A stretch of 64,000 nucleotides of DNA from Ruegeria sp. HKCCD4315 (GCF_013112245.1 NZ_WVRN01000001.1:2484501-2548500); one strand, 5' to 3'; shown: positions 28,266 through 61,177, numbered from the stretch's first letter. The notes: generated by a model not told the origin, from the sequence alone. Numbers and translations: made by a program.

Positions 28266-28278
28266 GATACGCCCCCCG

Positions 28279-39805: not shown

Positions 39806-41587
39806 TCAAGTCGCGACGTGAGATATGTCTTTGTCCGGCGAGTATATGTCCAAAATGTTCCAATGTCCGGTCGTTGGTGTTGGGTTGTTGATCATTGGCA
39901 CATCGAGCACGGTTGGTTTGCCACTGGCGATTGCCGCTTCCAGTGCGGGCAACAGTTCGTCGGCAGCACTGAGCCTGTGCCCTTCCGCGCCGTAGGCTCG
40001 CGCTATGTCGGCATAGCCCGGTCCGTTTGCGGGCGCGGCGGCTGATCCGGGGAACGTGGTTCCATAGGTCAATCCGTAGTGCGCTTTTTGAAGGCCGGCG
40101 ATTGTTCCGAAGGCGTTGTTGTTCATAACCAGCCAGATGATGCCCAGATCGAGTTCGACGGCCGTTGCGAGCATCGACGGGTTTTGACCGAAGCCACCAT
40201 CGCCGACCAGACTGATCACCACGCGATCTGGCGCTGCCAGTTTCGCGCCGATCGCGCCGGGGGGGCCAAAGCCCATCGTGGCGAACCCGCCTGGGGTAAG
40301 TATTGAACCGGGCGTCAGGATATCGAACTGTTGCCCGACACCGTTCTTGTTCCACCCGACGTCCGTGGTGATGATGGCATCCTCGGGCAGTGCCTTGCGG
40401 GTGTCTGCCAGAATACGCTCGGGCATCATTGGAAAGGCCGATGAGGTCGCCATTTCCACGTTGTGCGCTTTGAAATCCGTTCGGAAGTCGGCGATCTTCT
40501 GTTCCAGAGCGGGGCGTTTGAAACCGTCCGGATACATCTCGCGGGCGACCCGGTTGAGGACGCGCAAAGCGGCATTGGCGTCAGCAACGACGCCGATCTC
40601 GGTGGGATAGTTCCGACCGATCTCCTGCGGCTCAATGTCGATGTGAATGACCTTCGAACCGGGAATGTTGAATGTGTATCCGGGATACCAGCTGGAACAA
40701 TCGGCCTCTTTGAACCGGGTTCCCACCGCAAAGATGTAATCCGCATTCAGGCAAGACTGGTTGACCAACTCGGTGCCCCAAAACCCAGTCATTCCCAGCA
40801 CAAGCGGATGGTCGTCTCGCAGCGCGCCTTTACCCATCAGGGAATGCGCGACTGGCAGACCCATATGTTCAACAAATTCTCGCAACTCCTCGCTGGCCTG
40901 TGCCAGAAGAATACCACCTCCGACATAGGCAACCGGGTTTTCGGCCTTCGCCAACACTTCGACGATCTCACGCGCTGTCTCGTCGTCAATCGATGGTTTC
41001 TTGAACGCGCGCGTGTTGTCGCGGATACGGTCGAAACTGTCCGAGGGGATCACCTCCGAAAAGACGTCCATGGGGACATTGACCAGTACCGGCCCGGGCT
41101 GGCCGCTTTCAGCGAGATGAAACGCCTTTTCCAAGATTTCGGCCATCAGGTCTGCGCGATCCACCCGCCAGGCACGTTTGACAAAAGGGCGGTAAATCTC
41201 CCACTGGGCCGCGTCTGCGTGCAGATTCACCTCCTGATGCGGATGTTTGCCGTAGTAATGCGTAGGAATGTCGCCTGCGATCACAACCATCGGGATACAG
41301 TCCAGCGCGGCATTGGCGACCCCGGTGGCACAGTTTGTCAAACCTGGGGAGAGGTGTGACAACACCACCGAGGCCTTGCCCGTCACGCGGGCGTAAGCGT
41401 CTGCCGCGTGGCTGGCGATCTGTTCGTGCCGCACCGTGACGAAATCAATCGGGCTTTCGGCCAAAGCGGCCAGAACCGCGATATTCGTATGTCCGCACAG
41501 GCCGAACACATGTTTGACCTCACGACGTTCGAGAAAGTCGATGATATGTTCAGCGACGGTTTTGCCTTCCAGTTTTGCCCCGTCCAT
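39806..41587 (-). CDS. Thiamine-diphosphate-dependent enzyme, acetolactate-synthase-like
   Basis: Protein of 593 aa with the three-domain ThDP plan: PYR domain with catalytic Glu in VTVRHEQIASHAADAYARVTGK (about residue 48), central Rossmann-like domain, and PP domain with GDGGFGQNPSMLATAVELDLGIIWLVMNN (Gly-Asp-Gly...Asn-Asn for Mg-ThDP). Family members join or cleave C-C bonds next to a carbonyl. Last of three genes; the ATG at 41587 overlaps the aldehyde dehydrogenase stop by one nt (TGATG). The reaction is unknown; its company with a CoA-type aldehyde dehydrogenase suggests 2-keto acid or hydroxyketone cleavage to an aldehyde. Confidence 0.82.
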   Translation of the reverse strand: MDGAKLEGKTVAEHIIDFLERREVKHVFGLCGHTNIAVLAALAESPIDFVTVRHEQIASHAADAYARVTGKASVVLSHLSPGLTNCATGVANAALDCIPMVVIAGDIPTHYYGKHPHQEVNLHADAAQWEIYRPFVKRAWRVDRADLMAEILEKAFHLAESGQPGPVLVNVPMDVFSEVIPSDSFDRIRDNTRAFKKPSIDDETAREIVEVLAKAENPVAYVGGGILLAQASEELREFVEHMGLPVAHSLMGKGALRDDHPLVLGMTGFWGTELVNQSCLNADYIFAVGTRFKEADCSSWYPGYTFNIPGSKVIHIDIEPQEIGRNYPTEIGVVADANAALRVLNRVAREMYPDGFKRPALEQKIADFRTDFKAHNVEMATSSAFPMMPERILADTRKALPEDAIITTDVGWNKNGVGQQFDILTPGSILTPGGFATMGFGPPGAIGAKLAAPDRVVISLVGDGGFGQNPSMLATAVELDLGIIWLVMNNNAFGTIAGLQKAHYGLTYGTTFPGSAAAPANGPGYADIARAYGAEGHRLSAADELLPALEAAIASGKPTVLDVPMINNPTPTTGHWNILDIYSPDKDISHVAT

Positions 41588-42996
41588 CACGCGACCTCCT
41601 GTCCGTAGAACTCACCGAACAGGTCCGGCTCCGAGGGGCGATCCTCAGGGATCGGGCGGCTGACCCAAGTGTAGTTCATCATATGTTTCATGGTGACGTT
41701 TTCATTGGTGATGTTGCCGCCCCAGATGCCGCAACCCAAGCTGCTGGTCATAGGCATGCCATTAGTCCAGGCACCCGCGTTGGCCTTGGATTGCGGCTGC
41801 CGCACCATCATGCGGCTGACCGGGGCCAAACGCGCGAGCTGATCGATGTGATCATCATTGTGGCTATAAATCCCGCAGGAATGGCCTTTACCCCCGGTGT
41901 TGTAGATCAGGCTGACCGTTTCCAGCGCGTCATCGAACGTGTCAAAGTGATAAAGCGCCATCAATGTGGTCAGCTTTTCCTTGGAGAACTTGTGCTGCGG
42001 GCCAATTTGCCCCTGATTTTCAACCATCAGAAACTTGCGATCTTCGGGAATGCTGAAACCGGCGACCTTGGCCGTTTGCTGCGGCGGACAGGCGATGGTC
42101 GGAAACGTACGGTTTCCCTTTTCGTCCCACATGGCCGCTTCGAGCATGGCCTTCTCTTCATCCGAACACAGGTAGCCGCCCTCGGCTTGAAGCGCCTTGA
42201 GCATATCGTCGTAAACTGAGCGCTGGATGATGATGTTGCCGTCGGCCGAGCAGCCCGACCCAAAGTCGGAGGTCTTTGAAATGCGAGTGTTCTGCGCGGC
42301 GATGTCCAGATCGGCGGTTTCATCGATGACGATGGACGAATTGCCCGCGCCAACGCCATAGGCCGGGCGCCCAGAACTGTAGGCCGCTTTGACCATCGGC
42401 TTGCCACCCGTTGCCAGAGTCAGGTCACAAATCTCCATGAGGTGCTGTGTTAACGGGATCGATGGTTTGCGGATCGACTGGAATAGGTCTTCGGGGGCAC
42501 CGGCGGCACGGCAGGCTGCGCGCATGACCTCGACCATCTCAAAGGTGGTATGGGCGGTTCGCGGGTGCGGGCTGAAGATGACCGCATTCCGGGCGTTCGC
42601 GGCGGACACGCCGGTCACCGGTGGCGTCATCGCAGGGTTGGTCATGGGAATCAAGGATGCGATCACACCCGCAGGTTTGGCGTATTTCACGAGCCCCTTT
42701 TCTTCGTCGACTTCGACGATCCCCGTCGAGGGCGTGCGCAGAACATCACGCAGCACCATGTGAATCTTAAATCGCTTCGCAGGGCGCCCTTCGCGATCTC
42801 CGATACCGCTTTCGTCCACGCCTTGCTGGGCCAGACGCGTGAAGGTCTTCTCGTTCCCAGCATACCACGCAATGGCCTGAGATAGACGGTCCAGCTTGTC
42901 CTGATCCCAATCCTCGATCTCGGCCATAGCAGCGCGGGCGCGTGCCAGCATATCGGCCGCCATGTTGCGGTCGTTTTCAGTGAGCTCTTTGCCCAT
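41587..42996 (-). CDS. Aldehyde dehydrogenase, CoA-acylating type (SauS-like)
   Basis: Protein of 469 aa of the ALDH superfamily. The catalytic Cys is in FGSGCSADGNIIIQ, and the nearby VIDETADLDIAAQ and GVGAGNSS are features of the acylating group (EutE, SauS, AdhE N-domain), which lack the general-base Glu of hydrolytic ALDHs and release acyl-CoA. Overlaps the isomerase gene by 20 nt and the ThDP gene by one, so the three are co-translated. Likely oxidises the aldehyde produced by the ThDP enzyme. Confidence 0.82.
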   Translation of the reverse strand: MGKELTENDRNMAADMLARARAAMAEIEDWDQDKLDRLSQAIAWYAGNEKTFTRLAQQGVDESGIGDREGRPAKRFKIHMVLRDVLRTPSTGIVEVDEEKGLVKYAKPAGVIASLIPMTNPAMTPPVTGVSAANARNAVIFSPHPRTAHTTFEMVEVMRAACRAAGAPEDLFQSIRKPSIPLTQHLMEICDLTLATGGKPMVKAAYSSGRPAYGVGAGNSSIVIDETADLDIAAQNTRISKTSDFGSGCSADGNIIIQRSVYDDMLKALQAEGGYLCSDEEKAMLEAAMWDEKGNRTFPTIACPPQQTAKVAGFSIPEDRKFLMVENQGQIGPQHKFSKEKLTTLMALYHFDTFDDALETVSLIYNTGGKGHSCGIYSHNDDHIDQLARLAPVSRMMVRQPQSKANAGAWTNGMPMTSSLGCGIWGGNITNENVTMKHMMNYTWVSRPIPEDRPSEPDLFGEFYGQEVA

Positions 42997-43891
42997 GATG
43001 ATCCTCTTGGTGTTTTAGAATTGCAGCATCGGGCACACGACGCTGTGACCGCGCCTCGCCGAATGTTCGCTTGGCGTGGCTGAGACAGCGACGCGCGTGT
43101 TCTTCATATCCCAACTCGGCAACGCGGCTTTGGTTGGGCAGTTCGATGGAATAGTCGACGGGCGGCATCCGTTCGATGATGCCGGTGAAATCGATCCAAC
43201 CTTCGCCGGGATAGAGCCGCGCATCGCGCGCCAACTGGATCATGCCCTCGCGCGTATCGGCGATGCCGGGCAGGCAATCGGAGATATGCAGGAAGTGAAA
43301 CAACTCCGAGGGGACGTGCAGAAGCTCTCCGAGATCAACGCGACTGAGGTGCAGATAAAGCGTATCGACCAGAATACCGCCATTCGGTTGATCAGAGGCG
43401 CGGACAATATCCAGGGCCTCATCCAGAGTGCGCAAGCGAGAGAAGCTTGGGAATTCCAAGTCCACTGTTAGCCCGTAGGGCGCCGCCAGTTCGCAGGTTT
43501 CGGAATAGACGTCGATCAGAAAGTCACGATCATCGCGGGTGTTGGTCCACGCGCTCATGATCATGCGTTTGGCGCCCAGTTCCCCGCCGATCTCCAGAGA
43601 AGGCTCAAAACTGCGTGGGTCAACATCTTCGGTGATACGCGCAATCTCGATATCCAGAACCTTTAGACCAGTGGTGGAAAGAGCAGCTTTGGTGGCCTGC
43701 ACCTGCGCCTTGTCGATCGGGGATTGAGTGAACTCTCCGGGCACATGCATCGGAATGAACCGAGGGCTGACAGCGTCATAGCCTGCCCGCGCGGCGATAT
43801 AGACCAACTCGGGCGGCGTACAGCCAATCAGCGTCAGATGCGCCAAGGAATAGAGAGAGGGGCCTGCGCCAGCCTCTTCGGGTTTCACCAT
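42977..43891 (-). CDS. Xylose-isomerase-like TIM barrel protein
   Basis: Protein of 304 aa of the AP-endonuclease-2/sugar-phosphate-isomerase family: HLTLIGCTPPELVYIAARAGYDAVS at the N-terminus, metal-ligand-like Glu in LTVDLEFPSF, a second set in ILVDTLYLHLSRV and FLHISDCLPG, and a final Glu in IELPNQSRV. Members isomerise or dehydrate polyhydroxylated compounds. First gene of its operon; the GntR-type palindrome lies 50-77 nt upstream. The ATG at 43891 with GGAG 9 nt before it is preferred over an upstream GTG. Confidence 0.8.
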   Translation of the reverse strand: MVKPEEAGAGPSLYSLAHLTLIGCTPPELVYIAARAGYDAVSPRFIPMHVPGEFTQSPIDKAQVQATKAALSTTGLKVLDIEIARITEDVDPRSFEPSLEIGGELGAKRMIMSAWTNTRDDRDFLIDVYSETCELAAPYGLTVDLEFPSFSRLRTLDEALDIVRASDQPNGGILVDTLYLHLSRVDLGELLHVPSELFHFLHISDCLPGIADTREGMIQLARDARLYPGEGWIDFTGIIERMPPVDYSIELPNQSRVAELGYEEHARRCLSHAKRTFGEARSQRRVPDAAILKHQEDHHGQRAH

Positions 43892-43940
43892 GAACGACAG
43901 CTCCACGTGTCTGCGAATCTCAAATTCATCACACGTAGTA

Positions 43941-43968
43941 AAAAATATCTGATATTTTTAAAAATATC
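43941..43968. promoter_or_regulatory. GntR-type palindromic operator of isomerase operon
   Basis: AAAAATATC-T-GATATTTTT is a perfect 19-bp palindrome (43941-43959), followed at once by another AAAAATATC half-site (43960-43968). The same core recurs in front of dctP (52789-52805), and a half-site lies before the gfo/gntR pair (54001). A single regulator, most simply the GntR protein at 54095, would explain this. Confidence 0.6.
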
Positions 43969-43996
43969 AACTTTTAATACTGAGCAGAAAATGAAA

Positions 43997-44020
43997 ACGC
44001 CCGAGCAATAGCCCGGGCGT
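43997..44020 (-). terminator. Rho-independent terminator of the dctP-gfo operon
   Basis: A 10-position stem (ACGCCCGAGC with GCCCGGGCGT, one mismatch) around AATA, followed on the minus strand by TTTCATTTT and on the plus strand by GTTTTATCTTT. It lies 26 nt after the stop of the last gene of the dctP operon and before the isomerase promoter, separating the two transcription units. Confidence 0.8.
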
Positions 44021-44045
44021 GTTTTATCTTTGTGCTGGCGCGGCT

Positions 44046-45236
44046 TTAGACGGTGACCCAGTCGCCTCCGGACTGGTGAGAGCGCACAGAGGCATCTATG
44101 AATCGGACGCCATCCGCGCCTTGACCGACACCGGGATACGCCAGCCAATTGGCCGGAACGGCGACCCCATCCCGACGCGCGGCTACGGCCATGGCAAATT
44201 CCGTATAGAGGTTGGCCCAGGCTTCGATAATCCCTTCAGGGAAGCCGCGCGCGGTACGGATCAGACGTTCTGCGCCGGGGCCGATGCCATGCCCGTGACC
44301 TCGGCTGATGATACGATCCGGCTCACCGAACCGATTGAACTTCAGCTGCTCCGAATTCTCCAGATCCCACTCGAGACCTCCTTCGTTCCCGAATATGCGC
44401 AAACGCAACCCTCCCCGATTCCCGGGGGCAAGGCGTGTCGCCATCAAGGTTCCGGGAACTTTGTTTTGATAACGGGTGAGCATGAACACCGTGTCTTCCA
44501 AAGGCTTGGGCGCGCCGCAGACATGGAACTCGGCCCGTAGGTTGGTCAAGGGCAGGCCCGAGACAAAACTGGCCAAATGCGCGGCATGGGTTCCAATATC
44601 GCCGACACAGCTGGTCGGGCCAGAAATCTTTGGGTCCAGCCGCCATTTGACGTGGGGCGCATCAGCCACATCATCGGGCGTCATCCAGTCTTGCATGAAC
44701 TCGACGTGGATTTGGTTGATTTTACCGATGCCTCCTTCCGCCACGATTTGTTTGGCTTGCCGGATAACTGGAAAGCACGACATCGCATATCCGACGGCAA
44801 AGACCTGTCCCGCGCGCGCGGTGATCTCCTCAAGCCCCTCTGCCTCGGCGACTTCATTGGTCAGGGGCTTGTCGCACAGCACGTCAATGCCCGCCTCCAG
44901 AAAGGCTTTGGCCGCGTCGAAGTGAACGTGGTTCGGGGTGGTGATCATCACCGCGTCCACACCATCCGGGCGTGCCGCCTCGGCCTTTGCCATCTCGTCG
45001 AAGGACGCGTAGCACCGGTCGGCCGGCAGATACCAATCGGCCCCACGCACCTTGCTGCGCGCAGCGTCGGAACTGAGCGCACCTGCAGCGACCTCCCACC
45101 GGTCGGTCATCCGGGCCGCCGTTGCCTGCGTGACCGAGATACGCCCACCGCCAACAACGCCCAGCCGCAAACGGCGAGACAACTGGGGGAAAGGGCCGTC
45201 AAAGTTCAGGTCTTCGGGCAATAGTCTCTCAGCCAT
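44046..45236 (-). CDS. Gfo/Idh/MocA family oxidoreductase (1)
   Basis: NAD(P)-dependent dehydrogenase of 396 aa: Rossmann motif LGVVGGGRISVTQ near residue 26 and the family signature DVLCDKPLTNEVAEAE with the catalytic Lys (Glu-Lys-Pro replaced by Asp-Lys-Pro). It oxidises or reduces sugars, cyclitols or related polyols. The ATG at 45236 overlaps the upstream gene by 8 nt and follows GGAGA. Last gene of the eight-gene TRAP operon. Confidence 0.85.
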   Translation of the reverse strand: MAERLLPEDLNFDGPFPQLSRRLRLGVVGGGRISVTQATAARMTDRWEVAAGALSSDAARSKVRGADWYLPADRCYASFDEMAKAEAARPDGVDAVMITTPNHVHFDAAKAFLEAGIDVLCDKPLTNEVAEAEGLEEITARAGQVFAVGYAMSCFPVIRQAKQIVAEGGIGKINQIHVEFMQDWMTPDDVADAPHVKWRLDPKISGPTSCVGDIGTHAAHLASFVSGLPLTNLRAEFHVCGAPKPLEDTVFMLTRYQNKVPGTLMATRLAPGNRGGLRLRIFGNEGGLEWDLENSEQLKFNRFGEPDRIISRGHGHGIGPGAERLIRTARGFPEGIIEAWANLYTEFAMAVAARRDGVAVPANWLAYPGVGQGADGVRFIDASVRSHQSGGDWVTV

Positions 45237-45903
45237 TCTGAATCTCCATTTCCGGGACCCGTACGCCTTCCGGCAGCATTTCCACCGCCATGAAAATGCT
45301 GGGGGTAATCGTCTCGTACTGATGCCAGGGATAGTTGCCTTCAGCGTCATACATCGGCCTGTGCGTCGTGCCGGGGGCCATGAATTCTTCCAGGTAAAGA
45401 GTTTCAACGTCCCGTTCGCGGCATTGCTGCATTTTGCCAAAGCCTACGATTTGCGTATGCACTTCGCGAAACCCCGGTACCGGGCAGAAAGGATGATCCT
45501 TGTGCAATCCGACATTCAATGGGACCGAACCGGAATGGTACATGGTCAGCCCAACGTTACCCACGAAGACCTTTGGCGACATGTAGTGGCTGACACCGCG
45601 CAAACGCTCCTCTTGGCGAACATCAAAAGCGGATGGCCAGGTGTCTTTCACCCATGCGAACAACTCGTTTTCATCGGCATGGAAGTCGAAACCGTGGACA
45701 ATGACTGCGCGTTCCACGCCGCCAAGCGTGCTGTCTTGCACGATCACGGAGGAAAGCGGTGCAACGGTTTGATCCTCGACAGAGAGGCCCCTCTCCCCGA
45801 GATTCAGAACAATGGCGCGACCCTCGACAGATACTCTGTCTTCATCAGTGATGTGCTGGACGCGAAAAAATGGCTGGGCAAAGTCAAGAGTCTGAATAGG
45901 CAT
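45229..45903 (-). CDS. Unrecognised 224-aa protein of the TRAP operon
   Basis: I do not recognise the family. The sequence has a beta-rich, cupin-like look with potential metal ligands in its second half: NVGLHKDHPFCPVPGF, REVHTQIVGFGKMQQ, YLEEFMAPGTTHRPMY and YPWHQYETITPSIFMAVEM. There is no signal peptide or membrane helix. It overlaps both neighbouring dehydrogenase genes (20 nt and 8 nt), so it is a committed operon member. The ATG at 45903 follows AAGGAG. An isomerase or dioxygenase of cupin type is the best guess, held loosely. Confidence 0.65.
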   Translation of the reverse strand: MPIQTLDFAQPFFRVQHITDEDRVSVEGRAIVLNLGERGLSVEDQTVAPLSSVIVQDSTLGGVERAVIVHGFDFHADENELFAWVKDTWPSAFDVRQEERLRGVSHYMSPKVFVGNVGLTMYHSGSVPLNVGLHKDHPFCPVPGFREVHTQIVGFGKMQQCRERDVETLYLEEFMAPGTTHRPMYDAEGNYPWHQYETITPSIFMAVEMLPEGVRVPEMEIQNG

Positions 45904-47083
45904 AGACCAGCTCCTTCCTCTCATCGTTGAGGAAATCGACAGGCAGAGGCATCGGCGCTTCGCACCGGCTTTCTATAGTCTGATAGGCGCCGAATCTTGG
46001 TGCCCGTTCAATTGCGTCCATGACTTCAAAAACATGGTAGGCAAGCGCTCCACTTGCACGGGGTTGGCGTCCTTCTTGCGCCGCCAGGGCCAGATCCAAA
46101 AGGCCGAGCCCGCGGCTGTCTTCATTGAACCCGTGTTTGTTTTCGACCACCTGCCAGTCTTCGCGACCGGTTGGACGAGGCTGATGAGACCAGCGTGAGG
46201 TCTCCTGCGTTTTCAGCCAGACATCCCCTTGAAAGATATTGGCACCATGAACCGGGTCTGGATCAGGAATGCTGATGGTGCCGTTTTCTCCGTAGATCTC
46301 GAACCGCGGCGTTTCGCTGTCCCAGACGTCAAAGCTCATGGTCATCGACCCTATAGCTCCGGAGGAGAACTGCAGCAGGCTAAGGGAGTGCGTGTCGACC
46401 TCGACGTCCATCCATTCGCCGTTGCGAGGGCCGTTTTCGATCATCCTTTTGTCAAACGTGCATCGCGCCATTCCGGCGACCCGGTCAACGGGACCAAGGC
46501 AGCAGATCATGGCGGTCAGGTAGTACGGCCCAAGGTCCAGCAAGGGCCCACCACCCGCCTTATAGTAGAAATCCGGATTGGGATGGTGGCGTTCTGTCCC
46601 GTGGGTGCCGACATGGGCAAAAACCCCTGTCGGTTTGCCAATGGCACCCTCGTCGATCAAGCGCCGAACGGTCTGCCAGCGACCGCCCAAAAACGTGTCG
46701 GGCGCGCAACCGACCAGTAACCCCTTTTCAGAGGCCATGTGCAGGATCGCCTTACCATCCGTTCGATTCATAACCAACGGCTTCTCGGAATAGACGTGCT
46801 TGCCCGCCTCTAACCCGCGCAAACTGATTTCCGCATGCGCCGCGGGAATTGTCAGGTTCAGAACGCAGTCAATCGTCGGATCGTCAAACACTTCATCTGG
46901 CGTGCAGGCCTTGGCGACACCGTATTGATCCGCTTTGACGCGGCTTTCCGAAGGATCAAGGCTTGCGCAAGCCACGACCTCAACGTTTGAGAATTTGGAT
47001 AGTGTCTTTAGATAAATATCACTGATACGACCACAGCCGATAAGGCCGACCCGGAAGGATTTCGATGTCTCACGTGTCATCAT
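45884..47083 (-). CDS. Gfo/Idh/MocA family oxidoreductase (2)
   Basis: Dehydrogenase of 399 aa with NAD-binding VGLIGCGRISDIYL and the catalytic motif HVYSEKPLVM (Glu-Lys-Pro), plus a long C-terminal alpha/beta substrate domain (GGGPLLDLGPYYLTAMICCLGP). Two adjacent ATGs (47083, 47080) follow ACAGGA. It overlaps the citryl-CoA-lyase-like gene by 14 nt. The residues GGxxxDxGxxY typical of sugar/inositol dehydrogenases are present. Confidence 0.85.
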   Translation of the reverse strand: MMTRETSKSFRVGLIGCGRISDIYLKTLSKFSNVEVVACASLDPSESRVKADQYGVAKACTPDEVFDDPTIDCVLNLTIPAAHAEISLRGLEAGKHVYSEKPLVMNRTDGKAILHMASEKGLLVGCAPDTFLGGRWQTVRRLIDEGAIGKPTGVFAHVGTHGTERHHPNPDFYYKAGGGPLLDLGPYYLTAMICCLGPVDRVAGMARCTFDKRMIENGPRNGEWMDVEVDTHSLSLLQFSSGAIGSMTMSFDVWDSETPRFEIYGENGTISIPDPDPVHGANIFQGDVWLKTQETSRWSHQPRPTGREDWQVVENKHGFNEDSRGLGLLDLALAAQEGRQPRASGALAYHVFEVMDAIERAPRFGAYQTIESRCEAPMPLPVDFLNDERKELVYAYSDS

Positions 47084-47906
47084 TCCTGTCTTCGTAGAGG
47101 GGTAAGTAATTCGGGGGCATCGGCCCTTTGTTGCGGCCACCCTGGTTCATCTGTTCCCAAGCGTGGGCGAGTATTCCGACCGAGCGGGACAGGCAAAACA
47201 GCCCCCGCGACAAGGGCGCAGGAAAGCCAAGTTCGCAGAAGATCACAGCTGTCGCGCCGTCAATATTCATGGCAATTGGCCGACCGCCTCGTTGACGACC
47301 GAGTTCGGCTTGAACCTCTTCTCCGATATCGGCAAACCGGCCAGAAACTGTGCCTTCTGCCGCCGCATCTCGAACAAGTTGCATCAATCGTGGTGCGCGT
47401 GGGTCAACGGGCTTGTGAAACCTGTGACCAAAGCCCGATACGATCTTGCCGTAGGTCTCGCGCCAGCTGTCCAAGCCATCCCGAACAGCGTCATTCAGCG
47501 AAGCTTCCGCATCCATGCGGACTTCGATATCATAGTACAGCTCTGCACACTGCTCTCCTGCCCCGCCGTGCACGTCGCCCAGCATGTTCACCGCGGTCGC
47601 CATCGCATTATTGAGACCTACCCCGCAGGTGGCGGCCATACGCGCAGCCGCGATTGAGGGAGCCTGTGGGCCGTGATCCACGCCTGCGACCAAAGCAGCT
47701 TCGAACAGGCGCGCTTGTGCGTCGCTGGGCAGATCATCCCGCACCATCAGCCAGATCATTTGCGGGAAAGATACGTTCCCGATCAGGTCCTCTATGGCGT
47801 TGCCACGAAACGCGATCTGACCGGGCTTCATGTCGATGATGGAGGTACGCCACCATTGGCGAACGGCGCGCTCATCCATCGTCATGTTTTCATCCAGCAC
47901 AGTCAT
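47070..47906 (-). CDS. Citrate-synthase-fold protein, citryl-CoA-lyase-like
   Basis: Protein of 278 aa, shorter than citrate synthase (about 430), corresponding to the small stand-alone citryl-CoA lyase group. It has NMLGDVHGGAGEQ and SGFGHRFHKPVDPRAPRL, which contain the two His of the citrate synthase active site, and a CoA-site-like segment GLFCLSRSVGILAHAWEQ. Such proteins cleave or form C-C bonds in CoA thioesters. Overlaps the quiC-like gene by 4 nt. It implies the pathway passes through a CoA ester. Confidence 0.8.
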   Translation of the reverse strand: MTVLDENMTMDERAVRQWWRTSIIDMKPGQIAFRGNAIEDLIGNVSFPQMIWLMVRDDLPSDAQARLFEAALVAGVDHGPQAPSIAAARMAATCGVGLNNAMATAVNMLGDVHGGAGEQCAELYYDIEVRMDAEASLNDAVRDGLDSWRETYGKIVSGFGHRFHKPVDPRAPRLMQLVRDAAAEGTVSGRFADIGEEVQAELGRQRGGRPIAMNIDGATAVIFCELGFPAPLSRGLFCLSRSVGILAHAWEQMNQGGRNKGPMPPNYLPLYEDRNDDT

Positions 47907-49795
47907 TGAGTCTTCACCTCTTTGAACGTCTGGGTTTTGCTTTGTGCGGCGAGGCGAATGGGCGCGTTACGCGCACCGTAACCGGCATAACCCATGCGGC
48001 GTTCAACAATTTCGAAGAAGAAGCCGTTAAAGATGGGGCGGCTGTATATCTGAAAATACTCGGAACCCGCTGCCCGATCGTAAAGAATGTTGCCTCGGCG
48101 CAGTTGGGCAACCAATTCGTCATCTAATCCGAATGTCGCTTGCAGATCAGCGTAGTAGTTTTCTGGGATGGACAGGCTGGGAAAACCGGACTTCCGCAAT
48201 TGGGCTGAGGTTTCAAATATGTCGTCCGACTGGAAGGCGATGTGCTGAACACCGGCATCAAATCCGTCTTCAAGGAATGAAGCCGCCAGTGTTCGACGCC
48301 CAACTGCACCATTCAGGTTTAAACGCACTTCGCCTTCGGGGCTTTCGATGGCTTGGCTTTGCACAACACCCGACGGGTCGGCAACGTTCACGATCGGGGA
48401 TTTTGCCATCTCAAAAGTCGAAATGTAGTAGAGCAGCCAGCTTTGCATCTCATCGTGACGCATCGTCTGTGCCAGATGGTCGATACAACGCAGACCGGCA
48501 GGTTGGGTGGCTTTGGTTTTCGCAACCGGCTCGAACTCTATGTCCCAAACCCGATGCAGATCGGATTTCTCATCTATGAAATGGACAACATTGCCACCAA
48601 CGCCCCGAATAGCCGGGATATCCAGTTCCCCGGCCCCTACAGGCTGTGCGAAATTCGGCGCGCCCAACGCGGTCGCTCGCTGAACCGTCTGATCCGCATC
48701 TTTGACACGCAACCCCATATCACAAACGGAGGGGCCGTGGCCCAGAAACGCCGAATGGGCAAATCCTTCCTTTTCGGTATTCACGACGATGTTTATCGCG
48801 CCCTGCCGCCACAGCTCGACGGACTTGCTCACATGCTTTCGCTCCATTCGAAAACACATTGCTGACAGCATATCTGCCAGTTGCGCGCCGCTTACTTCAT
48901 CAGCTGTAAATTCGACGAACTCAAAGCCTGATGCATAGACGCGTTCCGGCAGTTCCGGGATGCCGAAATCGGTTCCCGGCTCGGTCCGTGATACCTCATC
49001 CAGGAGGTTCACCAGAGACCTGTAGCTGTCTCGGGCCAGTGTTCGGCCACCAGGTTGAGGAGCTGCTTCGTTGACGCGTGCAACCGACCAAGGCCCTTTG
49101 TATCCGGCGCGGGACAAAACGCGAACGAAGCCCGCAAGGTTCAGCGACCCAAGCCCCGGCAGAAGTCCAAAGTGCCGTTTGAGCCGACGTATATCCATCT
49201 CAAGCCGGGGTGCATCGGACAGTTGCACATGGAACAGCCGCTCTCCGGGAATGTCCCGAAGGCGGGCTGGTTTGGATCCGTCGGCAAGCGAGAAGAAGGA
49301 ATTCAAAGCCAACCCCAGATTAGGGCTGTCGACAGCATCAACGACGCCTAACGCCTGTTCATCCGAGTGACTAAGATCCGACCATGGTAAACCCAAATAG
49401 GCCAGACGCATCCCCATTTCTTTAGCGATCTGGGCCGCCTCGCTAAGATCTGCGATTACCTGTTCTTCGGTCGCGGCGACATCGACCTCGAAGGCAGACC
49501 CGATAAGCAGCAATTCCGTGCCCAACTCGCTCATCAGGTCGAGTTTGCGCTTCAGTCGATCAAAAGCGCGCTCACGTCCGACATCGGGCTGGCCTTCAAG
49601 ATTATGGAAGGGTTGCAGCAGGCAAATCTTCAAGCCGAGGTCCGATGCAATTTTGCGGACTTGCGATGGCGATCCGTCAAAAGCGGTCAAATCCGGTTCG
49701 TGTAATTCGACACCCCCGAATCCCGCGTCAGCGATAGCACTCAGCTTTTCAGCCAGATCACCGGGGATCGACGTTGTCGAAACCGAGAGGCACAT
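47903..49795 (-). CDS. QuiC-type 3-dehydroshikimate dehydratase-like fusion protein
   Basis: Protein of 630 aa with two parts: residues 1-280, a sugar-phosphate-isomerase-like TIM barrel (MCLSVSTTSIPGDLAEKLSAIADAGFGGVELHE), and residues 290-620, a hydroxyphenylpyruvate-dioxygenase-like VOC region (FVEFTADEVSG, RCIDHLAQTMRHDEMQSWLLYYISTF, FNGFFFEIVERRMGYAGYGARNAPIRL). This is the architecture of QuiC, which turns 3-dehydroshikimate into protocatechuate. The ATG at 49795 overlaps the dctM stop (TAATG) and follows AAGGA. No protocatechuate dioxygenase genes are in the cluster, so the true substrate may differ. Confidence 0.85.
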   Translation of the reverse strand: MCLSVSTTSIPGDLAEKLSAIADAGFGGVELHEPDLTAFDGSPSQVRKIASDLGLKICLLQPFHNLEGQPDVGRERAFDRLKRKLDLMSELGTELLLIGSAFEVDVAATEEQVIADLSEAAQIAKEMGMRLAYLGLPWSDLSHSDEQALGVVDAVDSPNLGLALNSFFSLADGSKPARLRDIPGERLFHVQLSDAPRLEMDIRRLKRHFGLLPGLGSLNLAGFVRVLSRAGYKGPWSVARVNEAAPQPGGRTLARDSYRSLVNLLDEVSRTEPGTDFGIPELPERVYASGFEFVEFTADEVSGAQLADMLSAMCFRMERKHVSKSVELWRQGAINIVVNTEKEGFAHSAFLGHGPSVCDMGLRVKDADQTVQRATALGAPNFAQPVGAGELDIPAIRGVGGNVVHFIDEKSDLHRVWDIEFEPVAKTKATQPAGLRCIDHLAQTMRHDEMQSWLLYYISTFEMAKSPIVNVADPSGVVQSQAIESPEGEVRLNLNGAVGRRTLAASFLEDGFDAGVQHIAFQSDDIFETSAQLRKSGFPSLSIPENYYADLQATFGLDDELVAQLRRGNILYDRAAGSEYFQIYSRPIFNGFFFEIVERRMGYAGYGARNAPIRLAAQSKTQTFKEVKTQ

Positions 49796-51090
49796 TATCC
49801 TTGATATCCAAACAAACGCGGCAACCACAGGACTAGATCCGGCATCAGCATCATGATCACCAAGGCGAAGATGAGAACCGCGAGGAAAGCCCAGATTTCC
49901 GAGATGATTTCTCGCAGCGGAATGTCCGTCACGGCGTTGATCACAAAGAGTAGAATGCCGTAGGGCGGCGTGATCAGACCGATCATCGAGTTCACGACGA
50001 CCAGCACTCCGAAATGCACCAGATCAATCCCAAGCGCTTCGCAGGTTGGAATGAACAGGGGCACAATCACCAGGATGATCGTTGTTGCGTCTAACACGCA
50101 TCCCAGCGCGAGGATCAGCAGGTTAACCAGGATCAGGAACACAATCGGGCTGACATCCGAACCTTCCAGTAAGGCTGAGATCGACTGAGGAATTTGCTCC
50201 TGAATGACGATGAAGTTCAGAATGAACGCGCCACCAATGACCACCCCGACGGCGGCAGAAGAACGCGCGCTGTCGACGAACACTTGGTAAAGGCCACGGA
50301 AGGTCAGTGCGCGGTAGAACAACGCTGCCAGTAGCAGGGCGTAGAATGCAGCAACTGCGGCGGCCTCGGTCGGCGTAGTGACGCCTCCATATATACCGTA
50401 GAGCAGAATTGCTGGCATCAGCAGTGCCGGGAACGCGTTGGCGGTTTTTGCAGGCAATTCGCGCAGTGGAACAGGTTCTTCCAATGCAAAGTTCCGCTTG
50501 CCGGCAAGATAGTAGTTCATCGCCATGAGGACGACGCCCATGATCAGGCCCGGCAGAATCCCTGCCAGGAACAGCGACCCGATAGAGGCCTTGGAAACAA
50601 GCGCGTACAAAACCATTGGAATCGAGGGCGGAATAATAGGGCCGATCGTTGCCGACGCCGCCGTGATTGCAGCTGCGTAGCCTCGGCTGTAGCGGCCGTC
50701 CTTGGTCATCATCTCAATGATGATCTTGCCGATCCCGGCAGCATCCGCGACGGCAGAGCCGGACATGCCGGAGAAAATCAACGACGCAACCACGTTGACG
50801 TGCCCGAGGCCGCCCTTGAACCGACCGACCGCAGCGACGCAGAAGTTCAGCAAGCGGTCTGTGATCGACCCAGCGTTCATTATATTAGCGGCGACGATAA
50901 ACAAAGGCACGGCAAGCAGAATCGTGCTTTTGTAGAAGCCTTGCAGGATCTTCTCACCCGCGAGGGCGACGTCCAATCCGGCCGTGCCAAGGTACACCAA
51001 TGAGGCCAAGAGGATGGAATAGCCGATAGGTGTCCCGATGCCTGCCAGAAGAAAGAGAGCGAGCAGGCAGGAAAGAAGTTCAAAACTCAT
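49795..51090 (-). CDS. dctM: TRAP transporter large membrane subunit
   Basis: Protein of 431 aa with about 12 membrane helices and DctM signatures (GMSGSAVADAAGIGKIIIEMM, IGPIIPPSIPMVLYA, LILALGCVLDATTIILVIVPLFIP, GLITPPYGILLFV). It forms the Na+-driven channel of a TRAP transporter. Overlaps dctQ by 4 nt. Substrate is not readable from the membrane subunits. Confidence 0.93.
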   Translation of the reverse strand: MSFELLSCLLALFLLAGIGTPIGYSILLASLVYLGTAGLDVALAGEKILQGFYKSTILLAVPLFIVAANIMNAGSITDRLLNFCVAAVGRFKGGLGHVNVVASLIFSGMSGSAVADAAGIGKIIIEMMTKDGRYSRGYAAAITAASATIGPIIPPSIPMVLYALVSKASIGSLFLAGILPGLIMGVVLMAMNYYLAGKRNFALEEPVPLRELPAKTANAFPALLMPAILLYGIYGGVTTPTEAAAVAAFYALLLAALFYRALTFRGLYQVFVDSARSSAAVGVVIGGAFILNFIVIQEQIPQSISALLEGSDVSPIVFLILVNLLILALGCVLDATTIILVIVPLFIPTCEALGIDLVHFGVLVVVNSMIGLITPPYGILLFVINAVTDIPLREIISEIWAFLAVLIFALVIMMLMPDLVLWLPRLFGYQG

Positions 51091-51662
51091 TTGTCTGCTT
51101 CCTCGTCGTATTCACCGTCGACGCGGGGATGATCGTCAACCACGTTGTACCCAACGACCAGTTCCAACTCGGTCTTAGGTGGGCCATTACGCAGGATGTC
51201 AAAGAACAGCCATCCATACCGCGCAGCCACGACCAGCATGAACACCGCATAAATTGAGAACACGGTGCGCAGCGGTATCTTCTCACCCGAGAACGGGTTT
51301 CGCACGGTCGAGGTTTTGCGGATTTTCATCCAGTCGATGTAGTCCCATGTCGGAAGGAAGCTGTAGAGCATCCCAACCACAATCGCTGCGGCCGCCAGCA
51401 TCGCAAAGACCTGCCGCACGCGCATCGGCACCGAAAGGTAGATGATGTCGAACTTCACGTGATCCCTCTCACGCACGATGAAGGCGCAGCTAAAAAAAAT
51501 CACCCAGACCCAGAGGATGCCGATCAGTTCAAGCGTCCAACCGGCGGGGGTAAAGAAATACCGCAAGAGAATTTGCAGAAGGAAGATCAGGAAGATTGCC
51601 GCCAGCATCCCGCCGGCAATCGCTTCGGTCAGTCGGGAGAACCCCTTGACAAAGGCTTTCAT
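51087..51662 (-). CDS. dctQ: TRAP transporter small membrane subunit
   Basis: Protein of 191 aa with four membrane helices (GGMLAAIFLIFLLQILLRYFF, LIGILWVWVIFFSCAFIV, VFAMLAAAAIVVGMLYSFLP, FSIYAVFMLVVAARYGWLF) typical of DctQ, which pairs with DctM. It lies between dctP (30-nt gap) and dctM (overlap). The acidic C-terminal tail is cytoplasmic. Confidence 0.9.
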   Translation of the reverse strand: MKAFVKGFSRLTEAIAGGMLAAIFLIFLLQILLRYFFTPAGWTLELIGILWVWVIFFSCAFIVRERDHVKFDIIYLSVPMRVRQVFAMLAAAAIVVGMLYSFLPTWDYIDWMKIRKTSTVRNPFSGEKIPLRTVFSIYAVFMLVVAARYGWLFFDILRNGPPKTELELVVGYNVVDDHPRVDGEYDEEADK

Positions 51663-51692
51663 AGTGGTTCTCCCTCCCTCGATTTACTGGAT

Positions 51693-52703
51693 TCAGTTGC
51701 CCAGCGCGTTGATCTGGTCCAGAACACCATCCGGCCAGGAACCCGCAAATTCGCTATCCAGATACATGGACTGTACCTGATTGCGGAAGGCTGCCAGATC
51801 AGGTTCGTAGATTTCCATCCCCTGCTCTTTCAGGAAACTGACCAGATCCTCTTCTTTCTGAAGTTGCTTCTGACGGCCTGATTCCGCTGCTGCGTCCGCA
51901 GCTTCCTGAACCTTGGCTTGTTGTTCCGGCGTCAACCCGTCCCAAACTTCTTTGCCAATGGCGATATAGTTCAAGTCGACCAAGTGCGATGTCAGGATGA
52001 TCTGATTGGTCACTTCGTAAAACTTGGCATCAACCACGGTCGGCAGCGGGTTGTCCTGACCGTCAACGGCGCCGGTCGACAGAGCTGTATAAACCTCTGA
52101 GAACGCCATTGGTGTCGGGGCGGCACCCAGCGCTTTGCCAAGGAACTGCCACGCATCGGTGCCCGGCATCCGCAGGTTCACACCCTCCAGATCAGCCGGG
52201 GTGCTGACGGTCAGTTCATCCTTGGGTTGGCGCAGGTTCACCTGACGACGGCCCAAATACATGACCGACAGCAGTTTGACGCCCAGTTCTTCTTCGGCCT
52301 TTTGCTTGAAGGCATCCATCAAGGGATCGTTGAAGACAGCCACCTGATGCGCGGCGTCCTGATGGACATAGCCTGCTGTAAATATCGAAAACTCGGGGAA
52401 GAACTGTGCCAGTTCTTGCGCCGAGGTGATCGACATTTCCAGGTTACCCCGGCTGATGGCGTCCAACTCGGTTCCTTGGGCGAAGATGGTTCCATTATAG
52501 CTGGGCTCGTAGCTTGCGAAATCAGCGACCATGGGCGCGAAAACCTCGGCCATAGCGACCGAGCGTTGATCGGTCTCTGATCCTGATGTTGCGAGGCGAA
52601 GTTGCACTTTGTCTTCCGCCAGCGCACCACTTGTTGCGCTAAACAGAACACCGGTTGCAACCAGGGCTGATACAGCAGCCCGGCGGGTAAGTTTGGTAAT
52701 CAC
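51693..52703 (-). CDS. dctP: TRAP transporter periplasmic binding protein
   Basis: Solute receptor of 336 aa with a signal peptide (RRAAVSALVATGVLFSATSGALA, cleavage near residue 29) and the DctP fold: VNLRMPGTDAWQFLGKALGAAPTPMAFSEVYTALSTGAVDGQDNPL, where the Arg (L-R-M-P) is the carboxylate-binding Arg of the family. The ligand is therefore probably an organic acid. It starts with GTG at 52703 behind GGGAGGAG. First gene of an eight-gene operon whose promoter holds the GntR palindrome. Confidence 0.92.
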   Translation of the reverse strand: MITKLTRRAAVSALVATGVLFSATSGALAEDKVQLRLATSGSETDQRSVAMAEVFAPMVADFASYEPSYNGTIFAQGTELDAISRGNLEMSITSAQELAQFFPEFSIFTAGYVHQDAAHQVAVFNDPLMDAFKQKAEEELGVKLLSVMYLGRRQVNLRQPKDELTVSTPADLEGVNLRMPGTDAWQFLGKALGAAPTPMAFSEVYTALSTGAVDGQDNPLPTVVDAKFYEVTNQIILTSHLVDLNYIAIGKEVWDGLTPEQQAKVQEAADAAAESGRQKQLQKEEDLVSFLKEQGMEIYEPDLAAFRNQVQSMYLDSEFAGSWPDGVLDQINALGN

Positions 52704-52788
52704 TTTGCTCCTCCCTGAGACATCATGATGCTTCTTTTTTGCGATTCAGAGTTTTGACCTATTTTGGACATTTTGCAAGATGTTTTAC

Positions 52789-52805
52789 AAAATATCAGAT
52801 ATTTT
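52789..52805. promoter_or_regulatory. GntR-type palindromic operator of dctP operon
   Basis: AAAATATC-A-GATATTTT, a perfect 17-bp palindrome, 86 nt before the dctP start and overlapping the stop codon of the upstream gfo gene. Same core as 43941-43959. Confidence 0.6.
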
Positions 52806-53886
52806 TCATTACTTGCAATCTCTGTTGCTGCGTTTCCTGAAGGTTTCTTATCCTGACTGTTTCACCTGTTCTGCAGGAATTCTGAATAGCTTCAATAACT
52901 TGAAGTGTTTTTAAACCTTCCCATCCAGACACAATCGGCTCTGCTTCGTGTCGAGCTACTTCAACAAAGTGCCTAAGCTGATTGACCAGAGGGTCAGACG
53001 CCCCCTTCTTCAGCGCGGTTGATGAGATTGGCGTCCACCAGTCCCTTTGCTCACCCTGGTAACTCCACAATCGAAGATCGGGAACGGACAACGAACCATG
53101 AGAGCCACCTATCATGTAGCTACTCTCAGTGGTTGAAGGATAGATTGGATATTCCTGAGACGTCATCTCCCAGCTCCATGGAGCGACGATGCTGTCGGAC
53201 ACACTTATGGTTCCAATCGCCCCGCTTTCGAACGTCAACAGAGCACCGGCAACATCTTCGTTGTCGTAACCGCGCTTGGATACAGCCGACTGAGCCTGAA
53301 CGGTCAAGACTTCTCCGGCCAGGTACCGCAGCAGATCCACATCGTGGACAAGATTGACCGAGATGGGCCCTGCACCGGGTTTCTTTCTCCAGGGCGCAGC
53401 ATCAAAATACTCGTCTGGCTTATAAAACCAGCAATTCGCATGGACAGCGCGCACATCTCCAATCTTCCCATCGACAATGGCTTCCTTAGCCGACCGGATC
53501 AGAGGATTGTGTCGACGATGGTGTCCGACCATCAGTGGCACATTGGCCTTCTCCGCTGCTTCAACAAGCTCAAGTGCAGCGGTGGCTTCCACGGCGATCG
53601 GCTTTTCGACAAGAAGAGGACAACCATGTCGAACACACGTGAGGCCTTGTTCAACATGAAGCGTGGTCGGGGTCGCAAGGACAGCTCCGTCCGGCGTCTG
53701 ATTTACAAACATTTCCTCAAGGGTCTCGTAACATGCGACCCCGTGCTCAACGGCGTAAGCACGACCTTCATCGCTGGGGTCGACCACCGCGACGAGATCA
53801 ACATGGCGCAACGCTCGGATAGCGTCCGCGTGGCGGCGTCCAACAAGACCAATGCCGACAATGGCAATGCGAAAGTTCTTAGACAC
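52795..53886 (-). CDS. Gfo/Idh/MocA family oxidoreductase (3), GTG start
   Basis: Dehydrogenase of 363 aa: IAIVGIGLVGRRHADAIRAL at residues 7-26, catalytic CPLLVEKPIAVEA (Glu-Lys-Pro), VGHHRRHNPLIRSAKEAI and VNLVHDVDLLRYL as in myo-inositol-2-dehydrogenase-like enzymes. The GTG at 53886 follows GGAAGGAAG and begins exactly at the Rossmann strand; longer in-frame extension upstream is not supported. It is transcribed away from the GntR gene and directly precedes the dctP operon, possibly with read-through. Confidence 0.85.
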   Translation of the reverse strand: MSKNFRIAIVGIGLVGRRHADAIRALRHVDLVAVVDPSDEGRAYAVEHGVACYETLEEMFVNQTPDGAVLATPTTLHVEQGLTCVRHGCPLLVEKPIAVEATAALELVEAAEKANVPLMVGHHRRHNPLIRSAKEAIVDGKIGDVRAVHANCWFYKPDEYFDAAPWRKKPGAGPISVNLVHDVDLLRYLAGEVLTVQAQSAVSKRGYDNEDVAGALLTFESGAIGTISVSDSIVAPWSWEMTSQEYPIYPSTTESSYMIGGSHGSLSVPDLRLWSYQGEQRDWWTPISSTALKKGASDPLVNQLRHFVEVARHEAEPIVSGWEGLKTLQVIEAIQNSCRTGETVRIRNLQETQQQRLQVMKNI

Positions 53887-53994
53887 TTTGCTTCCTTCCG
53901 GAGGGCCCGGCGAATCCCGAAACCGATGATTGCGATCGGGCTGCTTTGCCCAACTTGGCCACGACCGTATTGGGGTTTTCGCGATTCCGCAATA

Positions 53995-54024
53995 ATGTAT
54001 GATATTTTTATTTTTACCATACAT
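53995..54024. promoter_or_regulatory. Inverted repeat between gfo (3) and gntR
   Basis: ATGTATG and CATACAT, 16 nt apart, flank GATATTTTT, which is one half of the palindrome seen at 43941 and 52789. It lies in the shared promoter region of the divergent gfo and gntR genes and could serve autoregulation. Confidence 0.45.
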
Positions 54025-54094
54025 CAGTTTGGATTGCTGATGTCTCTGAAAAATGCTAATTGAACGAGGAAACTGATAATATCGGGTGAAACGC

Positions 54095-54748
54095 ATGGCG
54101 AAACAGCCGTCTACGATAGGTGCAAGCACCTATCAGCGAATCAAGCGGGACATCATCTTCGGGGAGTTGCAGCCCGGCTCCAAACTGAAGCTGGACGCCT
54201 TGAAGGAACGCTACTCGGCAAGCCTTTCGACACTTCGTGAAACGCTGAACAGGCTCGCCAGCGACGGATTTGTTGAAGCTCCTGAGCAACGGGGGTTCCT
54301 GGTCACACCGGTTTCACGAGAAGACCTGACCGAGATATCAGAGCTGCGAGTCTTGTTGGAATGCCACGCGTTGGAGTTGTCCATCGCGAATGGCGACACA
54401 GACTGGGAAGGCAACCTTGTTGCCGCACACCACAAACTGCATCTGATGGAACAGCAGCTTCTCAAAGGCGACGAGTCCGAGAAAGAAACCTGGAAACGAT
54501 ATGATTGGGAGTTTCACCAAGCGATGATCGCAGCCTGTAACTCCAAGAACCTTCTGTCTCTGCATTCAATCATCTACGACAAGTACCTGCGGTATCAGAT
54601 GCTTGTGCTGACTTATCGCGGCGAAGAGGCGGTCAAGGAGCACAAGGGCATGTTCGATGCCGCGCTGGCCAGAGACGCCGACACGGCCAAGAAACTGTTG
54701 GAGGATCACATCCGAAACGGCCTCACCCACACGTTACAGGCTATGTAA
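54095..54748 (+). CDS. GntR family regulator, FadR-type
   Basis: Regulator of 217 aa: winged helix at residues 8-70 (TYQRIKRDIIFGELQPGSKLKLDALKERYSASLSTLRETLNRLASDGFV) and an all-helical FCD ligand-binding domain (VLLECHALELSIANG, DWEFHQAMIAACNSKNL, EHKGMFDAALARDADTAKKLLEDHI) with Asp/His metal-ligand positions. FCD proteins usually bind small organic acids. Divergent from the gfo gene; GTG at 54086 is an alternative start. Likely controls the isomerase, dctP and gfo transcription units. Confidence 0.87.
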   Translation: MAKQPSTIGASTYQRIKRDIIFGELQPGSKLKLDALKERYSASLSTLRETLNRLASDGFVEAPEQRGFLVTPVSREDLTEISELRVLLECHALELSIANGDTDWEGNLVAAHHKLHLMEQQLLKGDESEKETWKRYDWEFHQAMIAACNSKNLLSLHSIIYDKYLRYQMLVLTYRGEEAVKEHKGMFDAALARDADTAKKLLEDHIRNGLTHTLQAM

Positions 54749-61008: not shown

Positions 61009-61177
61009 AAATACCGAAACTTAAGCCTAAAGCCTCGGGCAACCTCACGTCGTCGCAACTAGTCGCAAAGAACCTTTAAAACAAAGCCGTTTTAGGGTTT
61101 GGCCGGTTGCCCACTGAGTAAATGACGTCTAGTATAGTCGCAATCCATATCATTCAATCTTGGGCATTTTGTCCCCC

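Follow-up and report, generated by a model that had tools for sequence, protein, structure and literature searches.

A stretch of 64,000 nucleotides from Ruegeria sp. HKCCD4315 (GCF_013112245.1 NZ_WVRN01000001.1:2484501-2548500), referred to here as the window, carries a cluster of transport and catabolic genes at positions 39806-54748. We propose that the cluster is a GntR-controlled system for quinate/shikimate-type ring acids in which no aromatic ring is ever formed, a reading that seems nearly as likely to be right as wrong. Somewhat more tentative is the route that it may encode, a non-aromatic, O2-independent breakdown of quinate and shikimate via homocitryl-CoA to acetyl-CoA and 2-oxoglutarate. 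The last step would be catalyzed by one of two unrelated lyase families, a citryl-CoA-lyase-like (CCL) type or an HMG-CoA-lyase-like (HMGL) type, depending on the lineage. What was observed is a set of gene families, their conservation, their active-site residues, the replacement of one lyase by another and a palindrome common to several genes.

In the proposed route, the TRAP transporter DctPQM would import the ring acid and a dehydrogenase would oxidize it to 3-dehydroquinate; the candidate is a Gfo/Idh protein here and a shikimate/quinate-dehydrogenase-family protein in many relatives. Shikimate would enter as 3-dehydroshikimate, followed by dehydroquinate dehydratase acting in reverse. A xylose-isomerase-like TIM barrel (TIM2) would then take the C4 hydrogen and the C5 hydroxyl off 3-dehydroquinate, as QuiC does on dehydroshikimate, to give 1-hydroxy-3,4-dioxocyclohexane-1-carboxylate. 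The product would be a 1,2-dione because C1 of dehydroquinate is sp3 and the ring cannot aromatize. A thiamine diphosphate (ThDP)-dependent enzyme would hydrolyze the C3-C4 bond of the dione to yield homocitrate semialdehyde, a CoA-acylating aldehyde dehydrogenase (ALDH) would convert this to homocitryl-CoA, and CCL (or HMGL) would release acetyl-CoA and 2-oxoglutarate. The net reaction that we derive is quinate + CoA + 2 NAD+ -> acetyl-CoA + 2-oxoglutarate + 2 NADH, with no O2, and the derived atom balance closes (C7H12O6 -> C7H10O6 -> C7H8O5 -> C7H10O6 -> C7H10O7 as the free acid). Quinate C1, with its hydroxyl and carboxyl between two CH2 groups, is the core of citrate, which would explain the lyase: by chemical reasoning, opening of the adjacent ring bond and CoA activation would produce an analogue of citryl-CoA. 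We infer the substrate, each reaction, its regiochemistry and its direction, and the intermediates are less certain than the substrate class. The general order suggested by the initial annotation, namely uptake, oxidation, dehydration, C-C cleavage by the ThDP enzyme and acyl-CoA formation, is supported.

Myo-inositol catabolism (IolG-IolE-IolD) uses a Gfo/Idh dehydrogenase, a TIM-barrel dehydratase that gives a cyclic 1,2-dione, and ThDP-dependent ring hydrolysis. The proposed route would work alike, with a carbocyclic acid in place of the cyclitol and a CoA-thioester lyase ending in place of a kinase and an aldolase. All the enzyme families involved are known; their combination would join a ring opening of the inositol type to a cleavage of the citrate-lyase type. 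Plants commonly contain quinate and shikimate, which by the textbook route are broken down through protocatechuate with the help of oxygenases. If the proposal is correct, the cluster would provide a second microbial way to bring the common plant acid quinate into central metabolism, by a ring opening with a retro-Claisen end that yields NADH and spends no O2. Anaerobic fermenters reportedly degrade quinate without aromatic intermediates, and the cluster would supply genes with which to test this old observation. Genes of the acetolactate-synthase-like, SauS-like and "citryl-CoA lyase" kinds, now named after other pathways, would gain functions as well, and the cluster would offer candidate enzymes for producing homocitrate-type acids. 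A literature search, limited mostly to titles and the starts of abstracts and thin on subscription papers, did not find the route described, which is a weak negative; the term "homocitryl-CoA" had no match, which may reflect spelling or coverage.

Conservation of the cluster and its likely substrates

Twelve close-packed genes lie on the minus strand (39806-54129), transcribed in the order GfoC, DctP, DctQ, DctM, QuiC-like, CCL, GfoB, cupin-like, GfoA, TIM2, ALDH and ThDP, and a GntR/FCD regulator gene (54086-54748, plus strand; PF00392 and PF07729) is divergent from them. The genes listed in the initial annotation were all found at their positions by Pfam, NCBIfam and open reading frame (ORF) calls. 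Related loci were sought in a named genome collection by means of a ThDP alignment. At least 577 were found and the best 80 (L010-L089) compared, so the sample is biased to close relatives; their genes were called as mechanical ORFs and labeled by the best BLAST match. ALDH was present in 78 of the 80 loci, TIM2 in 71, the QuiC-like protein in 65, Gfo/Idh proteins in 59 and CCL in 55. The genes form one conserved cluster in marine Rhodobacterales, and the recurrence of ThDP, ALDH and TIM2 bears out the earlier view of a single catabolic system with conserved co-occurrence. Among the matches listed, the nearest named ThDP genes were those of Ruegeria species and Rhodobacteraceae KLH11 (up to 98%). 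A close ThDP gene was found in just 5 of 398 genomes sampled from the window's phylum. Aliiruegeria lutimaris has two ThDP loci (L050 and L073), one on each branch of the family.

The initial annotation had seen no match to quinate catabolism, and this has to be revised in the light of the relatives. Shikimate/quinate-dehydrogenase-family genes lie within the cluster in 29 of the 80 loci and type II dehydroquinate dehydratase genes in 8, and some relatives of the transporter adjoin shikimate/quinate genes without a ThDP unit. By our chance estimate, one gene copy per 4.7 Mb would give about 0.5% per 21.8-kb locus, or less than one locus in 80, the loci being related to each other. Two of the shikimate/quinate dehydrogenases were scored: the L012 insert, at 313.9, is above the subfamily cut-off of 235, and the Marinovum L003 protein, at 219.7, is slightly below it. 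The host genome (a 4.74-Mb assembly in four contigs) has a single shikimate dehydrogenase N-domain (C1:3466028) and a single dehydroquinase (C1:1572692), both far from the cluster (C1:2484501-2548500). In the beta-proteobacterial Azoarcus sp. KH32C, genes for ThDP, citryl-CoA lyase, a CoA-transferase, a TIM barrel, shikimate dehydrogenase and AroD are adjacent, and two actinobacterial loci (L008 and L009) hold ThDP, CCL, CoA-transferase and shikimate-dehydrogenase-family genes. The missing protocatechuate genes, which had been the reason for doubting quinate, would be expected if the route is non-aromatic.

The transporter is complete, with DctP (51693-52703, minus strand; PF03480), DctQ (51087-51662, minus strand; PF04290) and DctM (49795-51090, minus strand; PF06808; TIGR00786 396.8 bits against a cut-off of 268) together. 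DctP, the putative binder of quinate/shikimate-type acids, is 72% identical to 4pf6 (RD1_0742 of Roseobacter denitrificans; E=2.4e-157), and SiaP proteins, which are sialic-acid binders, come next in sequence and fold; the ligand proposed here is unlike theirs in being carbocyclic. The DctP structural model is weak (predicted local distance difference test score, pLDDT, 66). In a set of 289 genomes from the window's class, DctP had a close counterpart (E <= 1e-90) in 14 and the ThDP gene one (E <= 1e-150) in 4; all four of the latter, the window's own genome included, fall within the 14. The other 13 DctP neighborhoods comprised four with genes of this cluster and nine without, and five of these nine had shikimate/quinate genes. 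In Marinovum (L003), the orthologous transporter (73%) lies beside a type II dehydroquinate dehydratase and two shikimate dehydrogenases without a ThDP unit, and the QuiC-type protein there has intact site residues. A single stretch of a very small genome (1.4 Mb; L121 7547-16054) combines GntR, GfoC and DctPQM with AroQ, shikimate dehydrogenase and an aldehyde dehydrogenase that belongs to the ordinary Pfam type. Together with the clusters of the relatives, these neighborhoods suggest that quinate/shikimate-type ring acids are the likely substrate class.

Lyases and the other catalytic genes

The CCL protein (47070-47906, minus strand, 278 aa), the putative homocitryl-CoA lyase, scored 432.2 bits with NF004864, above the cut-off of 261, and matched the citryl-CoA lyase 6hxp at E=1.3e-41. 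Its residues H113, H161 and D216, which we take to be the catalytic His, His and Asp of the citrate-synthase fold, occur in 6hxp and in all 55 rows that were aligned (51 of the 80 loci, Azoarcus, Nonomuraea, and the window together with a second copy of it). It resembles citryl-CoA lyase in passing the cut-off and in this triad, and differs in its setting in a ring-acid operon and in the proposed homocitryl-CoA substrate. Thirteen of the 80 loci have an HMGL gene, and none has both lyases. The HMGL gene is immediately upstream of TIM2 in 12 of the 13 loci and of ALDH in L088, always on the ThDP strand. All four HMGL proteins that were scored passed the NF004283 cut-off (302-311 against 246), and the motifs RDGLQ (13/13), HLHD (13/13) and GGLGGCP (12/13), presumably the catalytic motifs of HMG-CoA lyase, are kept. 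Enzymes of both types cleave a 3-hydroxyacyl-CoA to acetyl-CoA and a keto acid. On the tree, a single switch between CCL and HMGL suffices, with weak support, and the lyase replacement therefore counts as one event. No Gfo match was found in 9 of the 13 HMGL loci and 9 of the 13 have a shikimate-dehydrogenase-family gene, which fits a single oxidation.

The ThDP enzyme (39806-41590, minus strand, 594 aa) has three TPP Pfam domains and is proposed to hydrolyze the 1,2-dione ring in an IolD/cyclohexane-1,2-dione hydrolase-like reaction. None of the 25 NCBIfam matches listed of 52 reached its cut-off (the best was TIGR00118, 412.6 against 538), and TIGR04377, the IolD equivalog, was not among these 25. 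Compared by overall sequence, it matched cyclohexane-1,2-dione hydrolase (2pgn), for which the same type of reaction is proposed here, at 3.6e-51, a weaker match than those to acetolactate synthases and glyoxylate carboligase. It is 26-33% identical to eight paralogues in the same genome, including 30% to the genome's own IolD, and the ThDP glutamate, Glu56, is present in 76 of 76 aligned rows, a few of which are paralogues. The inositol pathway was set aside because that IolD is a separate gene (L099; 833 bits against a cut-off of 715).

The ALDH (41587-42996, minus strand, 469 aa) is a SauS/AdhE-type protein in which the catalytic Cys249 is found in 76 of 76 aligned rows. Its closest NCBIfam model is that of the sulfoacetaldehyde dehydrogenase SauS (NF047625), with 427.5 bits against an equivalog cut-off of 600. 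The sulfonate pathway was set aside on this score, and no passed cut-off in the cluster indicates sulfonate metabolism.

The initial annotation had assigned dehydration to the QuiC-like protein and called TIM2 an isomerase. The QuiC-like protein (47903-49828, minus strand, 641 aa) is a fusion of an N-terminal dehydroshikimate-dehydratase-like TIM domain and a C-terminal HPPD-like domain; with NF042435 it scored 536 bits, below the equivalog cut-off of 1200. The dehydratase active site of QuiC comprises R64, E134, D165, H168, Q191, S206, R210 and E239 (PMC7442255). The window's protein, aligned to 5hmq, shows H, L, N, F, Q, K, G and A at these positions, so that only Q191 is kept. E134 and E239 are lost in 51 of 51 CCL-type loci with this protein. 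The alignments thus indicate that the metal site of this domain is lost and that most active-site residues are gone, and its assignment as the dehydratase is not supported. Among 12 HMGL-type loci, E134 is retained in all, E239 in 11 and D165 in only 6, so that their site is not fully intact.

TIM2 (42977-43906, minus strand, 309 aa; PF01261) retains its own metal site: the ligands E151, D181 and E255 are found in 73 of 73 rows, and position 207 is H (69 rows) or Q (4 rows). Relative to the QuiC site, the window's protein keeps R64, E134, D165, R210 and E239 and carries the changes H168->Y, Q191->H and S206->A. The best structural matches of its model (pLDDT 86) were Lmo2234 and IolI, tied, with QuiC1 third. 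We propose that TIM2, acting on 3-dehydroquinate to give the 1,2-dione, is a better candidate for the dehydratase than the QuiC-like protein, though TIM2 may yet be an isomerase.

The protocatechuate route (QuiC1 of Pseudomonas putida, QsuB of Corynebacterium glutamicum) was set aside with the loss of the QuiC-like site. It has a QuiC-family protein in common with the cluster and, in the cluster's relatives, shikimate/quinate-dehydrogenase-family and dehydroquinate dehydratase genes, and the substrates and first steps are probably the same. The cluster differs in that the dehydratase metal site is lost in the window and the CCL-type relatives, no ring-cleaving dioxygenase was found in it, and its ring opening is predicted to be a ThDP-dependent hydrolysis that uses no O2.

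A palindrome common to three genes

The palindrome ATATCNGATAT has two exact copies in the window, ATATCTGATAT at 43945-43955, in the gap before TIM2, and ATATCAGATAT at 52792-52802, at the end of the GfoC ORF and the edge of the gap before DctP. They are proposed as GntR operators ahead of the TIM2-ALDH-ThDP unit and of DctPQM, respectively. Taken by itself, the window gives the palindrome no decisive weight: it has 2 copies where 0.63 are expected, and 13 of 100 shuffles had as many. The relatives are what lend it weight, although many of them are closely related to the window and cannot count as independent. Counting copies with at most one mismatch within 150 bp upstream or in the first 60 bp of an ORF, we found it ahead of TIM2 in 41 of 68 relatives, DctP in 13 of 26 and GfoC in 13 of 21, a sum of 67, compared to a mean of 1.4 and a maximum of 7 for 29 control palindromes with permuted arms. 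It was rare ahead of the other genes: ALDH 0/76, QuiC-like 2/48, CCL 1/54, GfoB 0/32 and GfoA 0/32. Of the CCL-type loci, 40 of 52 have it ahead of TIM2; none of the 13 HMGL-type loci does. A GntR match was found in 4 of the 13 HMGL loci, and a LysR-type regulator lies beside the operon in four of the four HMGL-type loci tested. The GntR protein presumably controls the palindrome regulon and would bind this site.

Eight of the eleven ORF junctions overlap; the widest spacings, of 139 bp and 91 bp, precede TIM2 and DctP, respectively, which is consistent with the three units described in the initial annotation. Given the palindrome common to the TIM2, DctP and GfoC units, these look like one regulon. 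Between GntR and GfoC, at 53995-54024, lies an imperfect inverted repeat, ATGTATGATAT...TTACCATACAT, which is a possible diverged operator; it did not match the palindrome within one mismatch, and ATGTATGATAT as a motif occurred 11 times against an expected mean of 6.75, not clearly more often than by chance.

Evidence against the route, alternatives and accessory genes

Several findings weigh against the proposed route. Domain searches found no shikimate/quinate dehydrogenase or dehydroquinate dehydratase in the window's own cluster, so that the link comes via the relatives. No shikimate/quinate gene was found in four of the nine DctP loci lacking genes of this cluster, and in genome G222 (L119 9255-13091) DctPQM is followed by CCL with no close ThDP gene in the genome. 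In twelve of the 80 loci neither lyase was found; nine of these are short or cut contigs, one of which (L085) has an HMGL fragment at its edge, and the other three (L039, L050 and L084) are of full length. In Streptomyces L008, which is not among the 80, CCL is accompanied by an HMGL-like gene on the opposite strand, some 6 kb away from ThDP. In 69 of the 73 rows, the residue of TIM2 that corresponds to His168 in the dehydratase active site is Tyr. In Azoarcus and the actinobacteria, the cluster includes a CoA-transferase gene and no matched acylating dehydrogenase; the CoA-transferase could activate homocitrate or the C3 acid there. Neither the HPPD-like domain nor the cupin-like protein fits a step of the route, and the three Gfo/Idh proteins exceed what it requires.

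The abundance of Gfo/Idh genes (in 59 of the 80 loci, and in 53 of the 55 CCL loci among them) favors an alternative that we regard as unlikely but the strongest of those considered. A ring acid would reach the same ThDP/ALDH/lyase end with no dehydration: a second Gfo/Idh protein would oxidize C4, the C5 hydroxyl would stay, and the products would be acetyl-CoA and 4-hydroxy-2-oxoglutarate (or its semialdehyde), which an aldolase would split to pyruvate and glyoxylate. TIM2 would then be an isomerase or epimerase, and the tie of IolI, an isomerase, among its best structural matches favors this and counts against the dehydratase role. In 9 of the 80 loci, ThDP is followed by a gene for an HpaI-type aldolase, directly in eight (for example, L028 11810-12574) and as a shorter ORF further on in L033; two of these aldolases were scored by NCBIfam, both under the cut-off. 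Such an aldolase fits a 4-hydroxy-2-oxo acid better than 2-oxoglutarate, which also speaks against the proposed end products and suggests that some members may make the former. However, no HpaI gene lies beside the window's ThDP, and the aldolase query matched just those nine loci. In the nine HMGL-type loci without a Gfo match, only one oxidation is easily explained.

Slightly less probable is another hydroxylated cyclohexane carboxylate (a quinate epimer, a substituted quinate or a cyclitol acid), degraded by the same ring-opening logic, with a GfoB-cupin-GfoA cassette adapting the system to it. The cupin-like gene occurs in part of the relatives only (32 distinct loci, with GfoA/GfoB), suggesting an accessory substrate, and the window's cluster has no shikimate dehydrogenase. 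Nothing speaks directly against this explanation, but GfoC, DctPQM, CCL, TIM2, ALDH and ThDP also occur without the cassette, as in L028.

Rather improbable, in our judgment, is a 3-deoxy-2-ulosonic acid such as 3-deoxy-D-manno-octulosonic acid (KDO). The ThDP enzyme would decarboxylate it, ALDH would form a 3-hydroxyacyl-CoA, and the lyase would release acetyl-CoA and an aldose, D-arabinose in the case of KDO, which TIM2 would isomerize. This would agree with the relation of DctP to 4pf6, whose ligand is probably KDO, and to the sialic-acid binders. DapA-like genes near DctP in L003, L004, L005, L123 and L127 would also fit an ulosonic acid, and both points count against the ring-acid proposal. 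By chemical reasoning, quinate and pyranose KDO share a C(OH)(COOH)-CH2-CHOH-CHOH pattern, so KDO binding would not exclude quinate. Nor would an ulosonic acid explain why shikimate/quinate-dehydrogenase-family, AroQ and AroD genes occur next to the ThDP unit. Ordinary aromatic quinate catabolism, in which QuiC or TIM2 would convert dehydroshikimate to protocatechuate and the remaining genes would be unrelated, is very improbable: there is a QuiC-family protein and, elsewhere in the genome, three matches to intradiol dioxygenases and one to LigB, but the QuiC-like domain has lost R64, E134, D165, H168, S206, R210 and E239, the cluster has no dioxygenase gene that we could find, and the conserved ThDP/ALDH/lyase operon would have no explanation.

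The HPPD-like domain keeps its His/His/Glu metal triad while the fused dehydratase domain decays. Its role in QuiC1 and QsuB is likewise not established (PMC7442255). Azoarcus has a stand-alone HPPD-like protein in which, by eye, the second metal His reads Asp, and this protein is thus no proof of a common reaction. The cupin-like protein of the initial annotation is probably the 231-aa ORF at 45229-45924 (minus strand), which has no Pfam match up to E=1. Its matches in 33 loci at 56-94% identity (32 of them distinct, L117 and L056 coming from one genome) show it to be a real gene, and its conservation in loci with GfoA/GfoB matches suggests that it is perhaps an unnamed family. The GfoB-cupin-GfoA set looks like an accessory cassette. 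Pfam places the GfoB ORF (45884-47140), the GfoA ORF (44046-45440) and the GfoC ORF (52795-54129), all on the minus strand, among the Gfo/Idh/MocA dehydrogenases. GfoA overlaps the cupin-like gene by 212 bp and its Pfam domains begin at about residue 91; its true start is probably near 45236. The Pfam domain of GfoC begins at residue 86, so its true start would also lie downstream.

Two tyrosine-recombinase genes of the phage integrase family (36601-37818 and 61160-62515) lie on either side of the cluster-bearing stretch, and no tRNA was found in the window; the cluster is possibly a mobile island. Elsewhere in the window, a nucleotide-cyclase domain and an alpha/beta hydrolase domain are fused in one protein (29843-31252), and a sarcosine-oxidase-alpha-like protein of 1024 aa adjoins a DAO-family oxidoreductase (25024-29610). 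A sulfatase-family protein is encoded near the cluster (57745-59403).

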